This document shows, piece after piece, positions 4,201 through 30,980 of a stretch of DNA of 64,000 nt. How positions within the stretch are numbered: the stretch's first letter is position 1; the number at the start of each line of letters is the position of its first letter. The position numbers and the translations under genes were made by a program. Origin of the DNA: an uncultured Psychrobacter sp. (GTDB lineage Bacteria > Pseudomonadota > Gammaproteobacteria > Pseudomonadales > Moraxellaceae); assembly GCA_947489525.1 (NCBI GenBank), contig CANLDW010000002.1:558001-622000 (forward strand), in the 5' to 3' direction. Below the pieces are notes generated by a model, which was not told the DNA's origin, did not search any database, and saw only the letters and a program-made list of their open reading frames with translations.

Positions 4201-5106
4201 ATGGAAACCTTTGCAAAGAGTATCAAAATAAACGGTAAACAAGCGCGTTACTACGATTTATCTGATTTAAATAATAGTAGCGCGACACCGTCGCAGCCGT
4301 CTGCGCATTTTTATGGGGGTAATGGCTTTACCGTCGGTAACTACACCCCTCTACTCACTGAGCTGGCTGCGGACTTTGAGCTGAGCGCGCTTGCTATGCG
4401 CGGCTATTGGTATGACAAACCTACTAAGCGTACATTGACCCGAGAGCAAGACGCTAGTGTACTTATTGAGTTCCTAGAGCGAACGCAAGATGGTCCTGTT
4501 ATTGGTATTGGTCACTCGCAAGGCGCAACAGCGACAGCCATGGCAGCAGCCAAGCGTCCCGATTTATTCTCGCAGCTGTTTTTGATAGAGCCTGTAACCT
4601 TTACCAAAAAGCAGGCATTATTGTACAAAGCCATTCCGCGCCGCGTTAAGCTAAACCGTGAGCCTTTTAAAAGCGCCTTGTCCAAACCACTGACTTGGTC
4701 AAGTACAATTGCCTTTTATGAGCATCTGCGGGCTAAGCGCGCCTATCGCCGTATCAGTGATGAGCACTTACAAATATTTGCTAAAGAGAGCCTAACCCGC
4801 CATGATGATGGCAGTTATCGCTATATATTTAGTCCAAAGCGGGAGCTTGCTAGTTATTTTGGTATTCCCTTTATTGATAGCGCCTTAAAAAAACTCAATA
4901 AAACTCAGGTACCCTACACATTGATAATAGGTAAACCAACGATTTTTATTAGTGATAAGGTACGTAAAAATTGGCAACAATTTGTGCCTGCTGAGCGTAT
5001 CATTACGCTAAATGAATACGGTCATCTGTTGCCCATCGAAGCCCCTAAAGAGTGTGCCAACCTTATCTTGACTCGCCATGCTAGTTTTACTAAAGAACAC
5101 GCTTAG
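4201..5106 (+). CDS. Alpha/beta-hydrolase fold protein
   Basis: This gene encodes a predicted cytoplasmic hydrolase of 301 residues with an alpha/beta-hydrolase fold. The nucleophile elbow is GHSQG with Ser106, and the catalytic histidine is probably His275 in YGHLLPIE. An oxyanion-hole region with FYGGNGF follows the first strand. The substrate (ester, lactone or other) cannot be read. An ATG at 4195 overlaps the AAGGA ribosome-binding site at 4191-4195, so translation should start at 4201 (METFAKS), 5 bases downstream of it. Its stop codon is followed without a gap by the ATG of the alkB fragment at 5107, so it was probably once the first gene of a hydrolase-alkB operon. Confidence 0.85.
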   Translation: METFAKSIKINGKQARYYDLSDLNNSSATPSQPSAHFYGGNGFTVGNYTPLLTELAADFELSALAMRGYWYDKPTKRTLTREQDASVLIEFLERTQDGPVIGIGHSQGATATAMAAAKRPDLFSQLFLIEPVTFTKKQALLYKAIPRRVKLNREPFKSALSKPLTWSSTIAFYEHLRAKRAYRRISDEHLQIFAKESLTRHDDGSYRYIFSPKRELASYFGIPFIDSALKKLNKTQVPYTLIIGKPTIFISDKVRKNWQQFVPAERIITLNEYGHLLPIEAPKECANLILTRHASFTKEHA

Positions 5107-5385
5107 ATGACTGATTTATTTGCGCCGCGCCCTACTGATAATCTGCTGCCTTATGATGGTCAGGTGTATGATCTAGGCGTGGTTATCAATAATACAAAAC
5201 CGCTTTATCACGATTTATTAAATAACCTTCCTTGGCAGTCTGATATCGTCACTTTATTTGGCAAAACCCATATCACCCGCCGTCAAATCGTATGGATGGG
5301 TGATGCAAGTATCAGGTATCAGCTACCGTCATTCATGCTACAAACATCAAACGATAGGTTAGCACTCTCTAGTATTGCCGATTAA
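5107..5385 (+). pseudogene. alkB': Truncated, frameshifted 5' fragment of alkB
   Basis: This 92-codon frame matches the first third of the complete alkB at 7361. The two ATG codons align without gaps at a constant offset of 2254 bp, and from 5158 to 5306 I count about 12 mismatches in 149 bp. At 5307 the fragment carries an extra AAGTATC before AGGTATC, a near-perfect 7-bp tandem duplication that shifts the frame. Homology then ends near 5328, and the reading frame runs into unrelated sequence until a TAA at 5383. The iron ligands and the arginine region of AlkB are absent, so no active enzyme can be made. It directly follows the hydrolase gene, the likely ancestral place of alkB, and marks the left edge of an inserted AT-rich module. 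A functional short peptide is possible but unlikely. Confidence 0.88.
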
Positions 5386-5441
5386 AACAAAATTTGAAGC
5401 TAAAATAATAATTAAAGAAAAATATAAATATCATAAAATAG

Positions 5442-5470
5442 TTTACAAAATTTAAAAATAGAACTAAAAT
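5442..5470 (+). promoter_or_regulatory. Promoter of the accessory module
   Basis: TTTACA (5442-5447), a 17-bp spacer and TAAAAT (5465-5470) form a good sigma70-type promoter. Transcription would start near 5477, giving a leader of about 34 bases that includes the GGAGG ribosome-binding site at 5501-5505. The -10 box lies inside the operator-like sequence at 5461-5475. A second copy of the string, TAAAATAGTTGACA at 5465-5478, repeats TAAAATAGTTTACA at 5434-5447 with a 31-bp offset, about three helical turns. Confidence 0.6.
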
Positions 5471-5475
5471 AGTTG
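5461..5475. promoter_or_regulatory. Predicted operator over the module promoter -10 box
   Basis: GAACTAAAATAGTTG is an imperfect inverted repeat (GAACTA, 3-base spacer, TAGTTG). It shares its first ten bases, GAACTAAAAT, with the perfect palindrome inside the regulator gene at 6199-6226. Its position over the -10 box is where an XRE-family repressor would block transcription. A further 8-bp inverted pair, CTAAAATA (5464-5471) and TATTTTAG (5485-5492), brackets the start point. Binding is inferred. Confidence 0.5.
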
Positions 5476-5510
5476 ACATATATATATTTTAGAACAAATT
5501 GGAGGGGTTT

Positions 5511-6131
5511 ATGGACAAATTTATTGATGTTAGTAATTTGATATCAGATGAGCTTTTAGATGCTTTAACAGAGCATTTATTAGACGTGTATGACTTGGCT
5601 GAACAATCTACTGTACTTGAGAATCATGATAATTATACTTTTTCTTGCTGTCTTTATAGACTGACACTTAATGCTACTAGTGAACGTTTTAGAAAGAGCA
5701 AGTTGGTAGAAGATTATAGTAAAAATAATAAGTCAATTTTAAAAGTTGTTGGTTCTAATTTATATTTGAGATTCTTAACTACTAATCCTACTGAACATAG
5801 AAAAAAACATGGAACGGATGTTCTAGAAATGTTCGATATAGATAAAGAGTATCAAAATAATTTAGACTTGTTTAAGAATAATAATCAACAAGAAAAAAAT
5901 CTCTACGGTTTCTTTTTTTATGACAAAACTCCCGATGGTACGGCATATTTAAAACTTCAAGTATTTGATGAGTTCTGGAACTCTAAGACTGTATGGTCTT
6001 CTGATAAAATACAAGATATTTCTCTTGAGATAGACGAAACTTCTAAAGAATATCCAGCAGCTAAGTTACTTACTAACGAGCAGCTTACTCCTATTGTTCA
6101 AACTACGCCTGATAAAAAGAAAGACTCTTAA
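5511..6131 (+). CDS. Unknown 206-aa protein paired with XRE-ImmA regulator
   Basis: I do not recognise this family. The protein has 206 residues and no signal peptide or membrane segment. It starts with a helical acidic region (about residues 1-40), then has a mixed alpha/beta body with aromatic-rich strands such as NLYGFFFYD and AYLKLQVFDEFW, and ends in a polar tail TTPDKKKDS. A TTG at 5499 is in frame, but the GGAGG at 5501-5505 points to the ATG at 5511. It is the first gene behind the module promoter and lies 46 bp before the XRE-ImmA gene, so both are probably co-transcribed. Genes in this place next to XRE-COG2856 proteins are often toxins, effectors or stress-induced partners; that role is inference only. 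Base composition is strongly AT-rich, unlike the core genes. Confidence 0.7.
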   Translation: MDKFIDVSNLISDELLDALTEHLLDVYDLAEQSTVLENHDNYTFSCCLYRLTLNATSERFRKSKLVEDYSKNNKSILKVVGSNLYLRFLTTNPTEHRKKHGTDVLEMFDIDKEYQNNLDLFKNNNQQEKNLYGFFFYDKTPDGTAYLKLQVFDEFWNSKTVWSSDKIQDISLEIDETSKEYPAAKLLTNEQLTPIVQTTPDKKKDS

Positions 6132-6177
6132 TAACATCTGCTAATTAGATCTTTATTCTGATTTATAAGGAAATACA

Positions 6178-7329
6178 ATGTTATTCAAAACAATTAACAA
6201 TATCGAACTAAAATTAGTTCGATATTTTTATAGGATGTCATTACAAGAAGTTGCTAATGAACTTGGTATATCAAGACAGTATCTACATAAGTTTGAAACT
6301 ATGCAGAGTATACCTAATGATGAAATGCTAGCGAAATTAGCAAAGATATATAATGTAAGACCAGATTTTTTCACACTCAATAAAGCTACAGTACAAGAAG
6401 ATCAAGTTCATTTTAGAAAATTACAACGTACCAAAGAAATGGATAAACAAGCACTAGTATCCACCGCTGAATACATCGATAGACTATTAGATGTAATCCA
6501 AATGAAGCTTGCTGGTAAAGTAGCTTTACCCGCTATTAATTTACCCAACTTAGAAGAACATAACAAGAACTTCAATATAGAAAAGCCATTAGATATTGAG
6601 CGAATAGCTGAGTATTGTAGAGAGTATTGGGGTTTAGGACATGGTCCTATTAGTAACATGACAAGACTATGTGAAAACATGGGAGTTATTATCACTCTAT
6701 ATGGCATGCATGAGGGCAGTATGGATATCGATGCTTTATCAGTAACTTTAAAGCGTCCTATCATTATCAGCAGTACATCTAAAAACAACGCTTTTCGTTT
6801 AAGATTTGACCTTGCTCACGAACTTGGGCATCTAATTTTTCACGAGGGTATTATTACAGGCTGTAGAAAAACTGAAAGCCAAGCGAACCATTTCGCAGGT
6901 GCTTTCCTTCTACCTAGAGCAATAATGATTAAGTATTTTCCTTCTATATTTAATGGCAGAAGCTTTAATTGGGCCAATATGTCAAAGTTTAAAATGCATT
7001 TTAAAGTGAGTAAAGCTGCAATTTTGTATCGTGCCAAGCAACTTTCTTTGTTAGATGACAAACAATACCGAAGAGGCGTTATTTATTTGAAAAATCAAGG
7101 TGAGTCTCGTCAAGAAGCTGAAGACAAAAACCTACAGTTGGAACAACCAGAATTACTTGAAAATTGCATTACATATTTAGCAGAGCACGAAAATATATAT
7201 ATTGAAGATATTGCAAAAGAGCTTAAGGTTACCCCTCAGTTTCTAGAAGATTTAGTCTCTATGAGTTTTCACAACTCATTATATTCTCGTAATTATAGAA
7301 TTAAGAAGCTAGGTTTAGAAATTAGCTAA
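6178..7329 (+). CDS. XRE-family HTH regulator fused to ImmA/IrrE metallopeptidase
   Basis: This 383-residue protein joins an N-terminal helix-turn-helix (about residues 9-55, with LQEVANELGISRQYLHKFE as the DNA-reading part) to a COG2856 zinc peptidase domain. The peptidase has HELGH at 214-218 and the downstream glutamate in ESQANHFAGAFLLP, so it looks catalytically intact. A C-terminal helical tail of about 85 residues follows. In relatives (ImmA of ICEBs1, IrrE/DdrO systems, XRE-COG2856 toxin-antitoxin pairs) such proteins cleave or act as repressors in response to stress. The ATG at 6178 has AAGGA 6 bases upstream and is needed to complete the first HTH helix. A perfect 13-bp inverted repeat lies inside codons 8-17, suggesting autoregulation. 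Composition is AT-rich, as in its partner gene. Confidence 0.88.
   Translation: MLFKTINNIELKLVRYFYRMSLQEVANELGISRQYLHKFETMQSIPNDEMLAKLAKIYNVRPDFFTLNKATVQEDQVHFRKLQRTKEMDKQALVSTAEYIDRLLDVIQMKLAGKVALPAINLPNLEEHNKNFNIEKPLDIERIAEYCREYWGLGHGPISNMTRLCENMGVIITLYGMHEGSMDIDALSVTLKRPIIISSTSKNNAFRLRFDLAHELGHLIFHEGIITGCRKTESQANHFAGAFLLPRAIMIKYFPSIFNGRSFNWANMSKFKMHFKVSKAAILYRAKQLSLLDDKQYRRGVIYLKNQGESRQEAEDKNLQLEQPELLENCITYLAEHENIYIEDIAKELKVTPQFLEDLVSMSFHNSLYSRNYRIKKLGLEIS
6199..6226. promoter_or_regulatory. Perfect 13-bp inverted repeat in the XRE-ImmA coding start
   Basis: AATATCGAACTAA (6199-6211) and its exact reverse complement TTAGTTCGATATT (6214-6226) are separated by two A bases. The core GAACTAAAAT recurs at 5461-5470 over the module promoter. 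It lies 21 bases after the ATG and encodes residues around NIELKLVRY of the HTH domain, so the DNA is both coding and palindromic. It may be an operator or an RNA hairpin that limits translation. The symmetry is seen directly; the function is inferred. Confidence 0.7.
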
Positions 7330-7360
7330 ATGTATTTTTATTAAGGAAAACTATTGGCTT

Positions 7361-8029
7361 ATGGATAACTCACGTGTCCTTGCTCAGACAAATAACCTAC
7401 TACCTTTTGACGGTCAGGTGTATGATTTAGGCGTGGTCATTGATGATACAAAACTGCTTTATCATAACTTATTAAATAACCTTTCTTGGCAGTCTGATAT
7501 CGTCACCTTATTTGGCAAAACCCATATTACCCGCCGCCAAATCGTATGGATGGGTGATGCAGGTATCAGCTATCGCTACTCGGGTCACGCGCGTCAAGCT
7601 GTACCGTGGTCTAATACGGTAATGGATGTAAAACAGCTTGTTGAACAACACCTACTAAAAAATGGTATTAACGCGCGTTTTAATTCATGTTTACTTAACT
7701 ATTATCCCTCAGGAAACGAAGGCATGGGCTACCATGCTGATGATGAAGCTGAGCTTGGCGATCAGCCTTTGATTGCCGCCTTATCGTTAGGCGCTACCCG
7801 CAAGATGCTGTTTAGACCTAAAGTGACTGCCAAACCCAAACCCAAACCCAAATCTAGCGCCCATACAAAAACGTCAGATAAAGTTGATCTTTATTTAGAG
7901 TCAGGACAGCTGATCGTGATGGCCGGCGTCACGCAGCAGCATTGGAAGCACAGTATCGCCAAAACGACTAGGGTCAATGACGGACGTATCAGCTTAACTT
8001 TTCGGCGCATGCTGGCTACGCCCTTATAA
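7361..8029 (+). CDS. alkB: AlkB-type Fe(II)/2-oxoglutarate-dependent DNA repair dioxygenase
   Basis: This gene encodes a 222-residue AlkB protein, which repairs N-alkylated DNA bases (1-methyladenine, 3-methylcytosine) by oxidative demethylation. The iron ligands are His125 and Asp127 in YHADDE and His197 in WKHSIAK; the 2-oxoglutarate-binding arginines are Arg209 and Arg215 in RISLTFR. A lysine/proline-rich insertion (four KP units near residues 155-163) sits between the core strands. The AAGGA ribosome-binding site is 13 bases from the ATG, longer than usual, perhaps because the 5' region was replaced. The first 70 or so codons are a diverged second copy of the fragment at 5107. The gene follows the XRE-ImmA gene by 31 bp and could be transcribed with it. 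Confidence 0.92.
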   Translation: MDNSRVLAQTNNLLPFDGQVYDLGVVIDDTKLLYHNLLNNLSWQSDIVTLFGKTHITRRQIVWMGDAGISYRYSGHARQAVPWSNTVMDVKQLVEQHLLKNGINARFNSCLLNYYPSGNEGMGYHADDEAELGDQPLIAALSLGATRKMLFRPKVTAKPKPKPKSSAHTKTSDKVDLYLESGQLIVMAGVTQQHWKHSIAKTTRVNDGRISLTFRRMLATPL

Positions 8030-30883: not shown

Positions 30884-30980
30884 ACAATTTAGAATGCGTA
30901 TTATAGGTAGGTTATGTAGACTTGTCAATGCTTATTTGAAATTTCGACAACTAAAACACTGAGCGCTACTACGTATAATT

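Follow-up and report, generated by a model that had tools for sequence, protein, structure and literature searches.

The first codons of rmrA, the antitoxin-like gene of a RosmerTA-like module, carry a modest excess of RNA structure across the gene family, and a perfect palindrome among these codons, at 6199–6226 of the window (the whole stretch of 64,000 nucleotides analyzed here, from whose first letter all positions are counted), may be a lineage-specific instance of that early structure. Our best explanation, which we hold tentatively and to which we give somewhat less than an even chance, is that the palindrome acts as a hairpin in the rmrT-rmrA transcript rather than as an operator, and that RmrA represses from conserved units at the promoter. 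The hairpin would most likely be one case of a family tendency for codons 6–65 to be more structured than the protein demands, and this early structure would tune the production of antitoxin from a message in which the toxin comes first. It might do so by slowing early elongation, by coupling rmrA to the upstream gene, or by marking a processing site.

The family was represented by homologous loci, of which 203 were put in (the weaker matches L009–L026 being left out) and 198 were usable; these reduced to 123 nonredundant homologs at 97% identity and to 77 clusters at 75% nucleotide identity. The alignment search behind the homologs contributed the best 80 of 507 matches, and the corresponding viral search the best 80 of 427. 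A search of 390 genomes of the order (E 1e-70) returned, besides the window's own locus, two places at 46% and 42%, both left out of the homolog counts. Scanning genome contigs with a single protein yielded no confirmed relative, and in plasmids a DNA-level search returned one match, which spanned 11% of the query.

An early inverted repeat at P ≤ 0.05 was found in 31 of the 123 homologs, against six expected. Measured against gene-wide codon usage, the first five stretches of 48 nt had mean z between -0.50 and -0.88, and z fell below -1.5 in 20–30% of homologs in each of them, whereas mean z in later stretches lay mostly between -0.4 and +0.2. When synonymous codons were permuted within blocks, codons 6–65 of rmrA gave a mean z of -1.09 over the 77 clusters (P = 2e-9), and the next four blocks gave -0.55, -0.52, -0.21, and -0.34; blocks two and three were thus also below zero (P = 6e-6 and P = 8e-5, respectively), and GC3 was 0.44–0.47 throughout. 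Control values were -0.25 and -0.31 for toxin genes (toxin ORFs being present in 69 of the 77 clusters), -0.38 and -0.22 for host ORFs (180 uncurated ORFs of at least 900 nt), and -0.21 for generic HTH_3 genes (24 usable loci among the 27 that remained of 29 once the window's gene and a near-duplicate had been removed). Clustering at 62% returned a compatible result (early z = -0.94 vs. -0.20, 53 clusters). Counted over all places, stems of at least six pairs were in slight surplus (7460 pairs vs. 7022 by permutation).

One hairpin recurs in the family. Six pairs at +39/+57 were formed in 34 of the 123 homologs and in 11 of the 77 clusters, against 1.8 clusters by permutation, although the related sequences behind these counts are not independent; none of 2,000 permutations reached 11, and with any place allowed, 40 permuted sets reached at most eight clusters. 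The pairs +41/+55 and +44/+52 vary on both sides (GCCCGC/GCGGGC and GCTCGT/ACGAGC), the single departures from pairing are ten G-U and one A-C, with nine of the ten G-U on one pair, and changes in the 3′ arm alter amino acids. The two main forms largely track lineage, and independent events are accordingly few. The early excess remains when the clusters with this hairpin are removed, both at 75% (z = -0.87 vs. -0.14, n = 66, paired P = 4e-4) and at 62% (z = -0.75 vs. -0.14, 48 clusters, P = 0.009). Three homologs on enterobacterial plasmids (L036, L038, and L039) have another early inverted repeat, GCGGGTC...GACCCGC, in HTH codons at about +80 to +98, and L037 has a shorter form of it.

The palindrome in the window, AATATCGAACTAA-AA-TTAGTTCGATATT on the forward strand, has perfect arms of 13 bp (6199–6211 and 6214–6226) and occupies codons 8–17 of the ORF that starts at 6178, exactly where the sequence-only reading had placed it; gapless extension yields an inverted repeat at 6195–6230 with arms of 17 nt that are 94% complementary. 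That reading had also noticed that the core, GAACTAAAAT, is present again at 5461–5470, over the -10-like box TAAAAT, and so it is. With the protein fixed, an inverted repeat of score 14 arose in seven of 20,000 synonymous recodings of the first 40 codons (119 of 20,000 for a score of at least 13), and whole-gene recodings of rmrA reached score 14 once in 1,500. Twenty runs of first-order Markov sequence, each of 64 kb, produced perfect arms of 12 once and arms of 13 never. We further counted 27 perfect inverted repeats with arms of at least 11 bp and a loop of at most 8 in 464 kb of host DNA (the window and a further 20 stretches, each of 20 kb); the rmrA palindrome is the only one of them inside an ORF of at least 600 nt, and three others lie inside ORFs of 462, 471, and 579 nt. 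Because of these recoding, Markov, and host counts, the palindrome exceeds what ordinary chance would produce in coding DNA; extended to a whole genome, about one such coding palindrome would not be shocking. It is the longest early inverted repeat among 124 genes. The 10-mer that it has in common with the promoter is weaker evidence than the palindrome itself, because GAACTAAA occurs in frame, encoding Glu-Leu-Lys at the same codons, in six of the 123 nonredundant homologs, where the right arm is absent.

Two explanations for the origin of the palindrome could be set aside from counts of its core. Near-matches to the core with at most two mismatches numbered nine in the host genome (the palindrome included) vs. 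27 for a reversed control pattern, on which a dispersed genomic element was rejected, and a palindrome conserved by the family was rejected because its core is absent from all 198 homologs, none of them above ~50% identity among the matches listed. A search of viral contigs gave no hit to the full 28-mer; an 18-base core pattern was found in three of them, and among the ORFs of at least 60 aa listed within ~100 nt of those three places none reads like rmrA.

As RNA, the palindrome is predicted to form a hairpin of -12.5 kcal/mol on its own, and the fold of the surrounding 121 nt (6140–6260) has a z of -3.05 relative to shuffles, in agreement with the earlier suggestion that the message could fold near the start codon. 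The early block of the window's rmrA has a z of -1.78 by mean energy and -3.10 by lowest energy. The hairpin starts 21 nt downstream of the start codon's first base, close to where the leading edge of a ribosome would stand during initiation. The ribosome-binding site AAGGA and the start codon (6167–6180, forward strand) lie mostly outside it, the mean unpaired probability being 0.63 over 6169–6174 and 0.60 over 6175–6190; because they are mostly unpaired, a direct block of initiation is not predicted. A known RNA family was rejected as a candidate, since Rfam gave no match reaching its gathering score in 5100–7500. Nor does the hairpin behave as a conserved structured RNA element: it occurs in none of the 198 homologs, and stems centered at +27 to +39, the place of the window's hairpin, comprised 324 pairs vs. 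316 after permutation, which is no excess in the family. The window's rmrA is without the +39/+57 hairpin, its own beginning 18 nt earlier, and this position off the recurrent one speaks against our best explanation, as do the absence from the homologs, the lack of a stem excess at its place, and the modest size of the family excess.

The lack of a family stem excess at that place is what one would expect if the palindrome were a mutational by-product with no function, one arm having been copied onto the other by a template switch (or the match having arisen by chance) and the protein having tolerated the result, an account that we consider as probable as our best explanation. Template switching can give paired changes without selection (PMC8794818), and it is described as yielding perfect stems together with clustered amino acid changes (PMC8794818, PMC8604942). 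The right arm differs from the homologs as a block (TTA GTT CGA TAT vs., for example, CTT CTT AGA CAA in L056), and three of the residues encoded in the arms are rare in the family (N8 in 1/123, I9 in 0/123, and Y16 in 0/123). Rare residues make up three of ten positions in the palindrome vs. 23 of 346 elsewhere (Fisher's exact test: P = 0.03), a slight enrichment because they occur elsewhere too, at five of 55 positions of the HTH region outside the palindrome. They fit the block copying of one arm, and they fit equally selection for pairing over protein, which may have acted on the window's hairpin. Given the protein, moreover, the recodings that reached a score of at least 13 (119/20,000) leave room for a fortuitous repeat. 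A by-product alone leaves unexplained the family-wide excess of structure in early rmrA.

A promoter of the sigma-70 type (TTTACA-17-TAAAAT, 10 of 12 consensus matches) lies at 5442–5470 on the forward strand. The promoter scan by itself is little proof, since it flagged 15 promoter-like sites overall vs. 12.8 in shuffles; the sequence-only reading was right that a regulated-looking promoter lies here. Homologous promoters contain a conserved tandem unit, RGTTGACA-N11-TTGCA, and two direct GTTGACA-like copies 30–38 nt apart were found upstream of rmrA in 73 of the 123 homologs (the tandem rule missing the other 50), compared with 0 of 123 in coding control sequence of equal length. The period is 33 in 38 homologs, 34 in 21, and 31 in eight. 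We built an operator matrix from 82 units of 41 distant homolog clusters, with the window excluded, and scanned both strands of the window (~128,000 positions). The two best sites are adjacent units on the forward strand: unit 1 at 5440–5464 (AGTTTACA-N11-TAGAAC, score 18.2, rank 1), which contains the -35 box TTTACA, and unit 2 at 5471–5495 (AGTTGACA-N11-TAGAAC, score 18.1, rank 2), 31 nt downstream; the third-ranked site, at 30927, scores 15.6. With a flexible-spacing matrix, the unit at 5440 ranks 8 and that at 5471 ranks 2. The distance from GTTGACA to TTGCA is fixed within a unit of the matrix, whereas the spacing between units varies across homologs. The left motif coincides in part with the -35 box, and some of its conservation is therefore that of a promoter; unit 2, however, retains both the left motif and the right element with no good -10 box after it in the window. 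TAGAAC, the right element of the window's units, is also found in unit 1 of the homolog L163. The conservation of these units suggests that they are bound by RmrA, which would most likely repress the operon from them.

The copy of GAACTAAAAT at 5461–5470 thus consists of the right end of unit 1 and the -10 box, which bears on the proposal that the palindrome is a second site for the HTH protein, either looping to the promoter or serving as a roadblock to RNA polymerase. In favor of a second operator are this shared sequence, the order AAC...GTT in both places, and the exceptional character of the palindrome for coding DNA. Yet the palindrome does not resemble the conserved unit: the best matrix site overlapping it has a negative score (-6.6) and ranks 473 over both strands of the window, and its best site under flexible spacing ranks 595. 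What it does resemble is the junction between units 1 and 2 (AAC-TAAAATA-GTT vs. AAC-TAAAATTA-GTT), whose spacing varies among homologs, and the six of 123 nonredundant homologs that keep the GAACTAAA codons do so without the right arm. The sequence-only reading had named absence of the palindrome from close homologs that keep the protein as grounds for giving up the idea; the absence itself holds, the core being missing in 198 of 198, and the closeness does not, the nearest homologs being only ~50% identical. On the matrix, the junction, and the homologs together we reject the palindrome as an operator and regard binding of RmrA there as very improbable; the conserved tandem unit in RosmerTA promoters takes the place of this tempting but unsupported operator.

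Least probable of all, and hardly credible, is a transcription attenuator in which the hairpin and a T run would stop part of the transcription on its way from rmrT into the remainder of rmrA: TTTAT does follow the stem on the sense strand, but the terminator scan flags the palindrome only on the opposite strand, which makes a conventional terminator a weak reading, the stem has only three G-C pairs, and the antitoxin would be expected to drop relative to the toxin.

The module to which these features belong resembles in sequence a RosmerTA toxin-antitoxin pair. Its downstream gene, rmrA (6178–7329, forward strand), encodes an antitoxin-like protein of 383 aa with the HTH domain and ImmA/IrrE (M78) protease domain of a RosmerTA antitoxin (Pfam HTH_3, PF01381, E = 2.4e-11; Peptidase_M78/ImmA, PF06114, E = 8.9e-15; PADLOC RmrA profile PDLC03943, E = 9.7e-132), and H214, E215, and H218 are invariant across 12 aligned sequences. 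The adjacent toxin gene of such a pair is represented by rmrT (5511–6131, forward strand), whose 206-aa toxin-like product matches the PADLOC RmrT profile over residues 11–205 (E = 2.5e-8), and 106 of the 123 homologs have an ORF of 400–900 nt at the corresponding place. In a single-sequence search, RmrT matched five of these 106 ORFs with E-values no higher than 0.0012; a profile made from 81 toxin-position ORFs and RmrT matched all of them, which is circular, and the toxin alignment comprised 53 of the 81 toxins and the window's RmrT. A structural model of RmrT (pLDDT 80.6) had no Foldseek match below E = 0.001. In a second structural comparison Z reached 6.1, which is below a trustworthy level; the matches included unrelated folds, and the top one and several other low-level ones were type II restriction endonucleases, which hints weakly at a nuclease-like fold.

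The module lies between a truncated 5′ copy (5107–5385) and a complete copy (7361–8029) of an alkB-like gene; the copies are ~89% alike over 5138–5327 and 7392–7580, and their first codons differ. Because a hydrolase gene directly adjoins alkB at a locus of the same genus (L283), the arrangement suggests that the toxin-antitoxin module was inserted between the alkB-like copies. In a Providencia homolog (L037:5829–6047) a 2OG-Fe(II) oxygenase gene lies downstream of rmrA, as alkB does here.

Systems with the toxin gene in front have to ensure that enough antitoxin is produced, and the excess of early structure falls within the opening codons of the antitoxin gene. A wider proposal, which we consider unlikely though worth stating, is that the beginning of the gene forms a structured element of control in the RNA, for which different lineages evolved different hairpins, some at the cost of amino acid changes, and which would set antitoxin output from the toxin-first message or sense altered translation in the course of a phage infection. 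Our literature search found mention of neither the tandem promoter unit, or any other RosmerTA operator, nor early structure in the antitoxin gene.

Compared with known systems, the palindrome is like the hairpins attributed to template switching (PMC8794818, PMC8604942) in that coding DNA holds a perfect inverted repeat with a short spacer and clustered changes; those studies infer events from reconstructed ancestors, whereas our searches turned up no close relative. RosmerTA is described as a phage-defense system of a toxin and an antitoxin with an ImmA protease, the toxin studied there being that of Gordonia phage Kita (PMC10440598), and the available part of that description holds nothing on operators or on structure in the antitoxin gene. 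The module is like RosmerTA in that an antitoxin with HTH and ImmA-protease domains is encoded beside a toxin gene, with profile hits for both genes. Its toxin-first order is the one given for 58% of the ImmA/Rosmer node in the same source. RmrA also recalls ImmR/ImmA of a Bacillus conjugative element, as that source presents it (PMC10440598), in pairing an HTH repressor with an ImmA-type protease, and differs from it in that both functions would reside here in one protein, with a toxin-like gene upstream.
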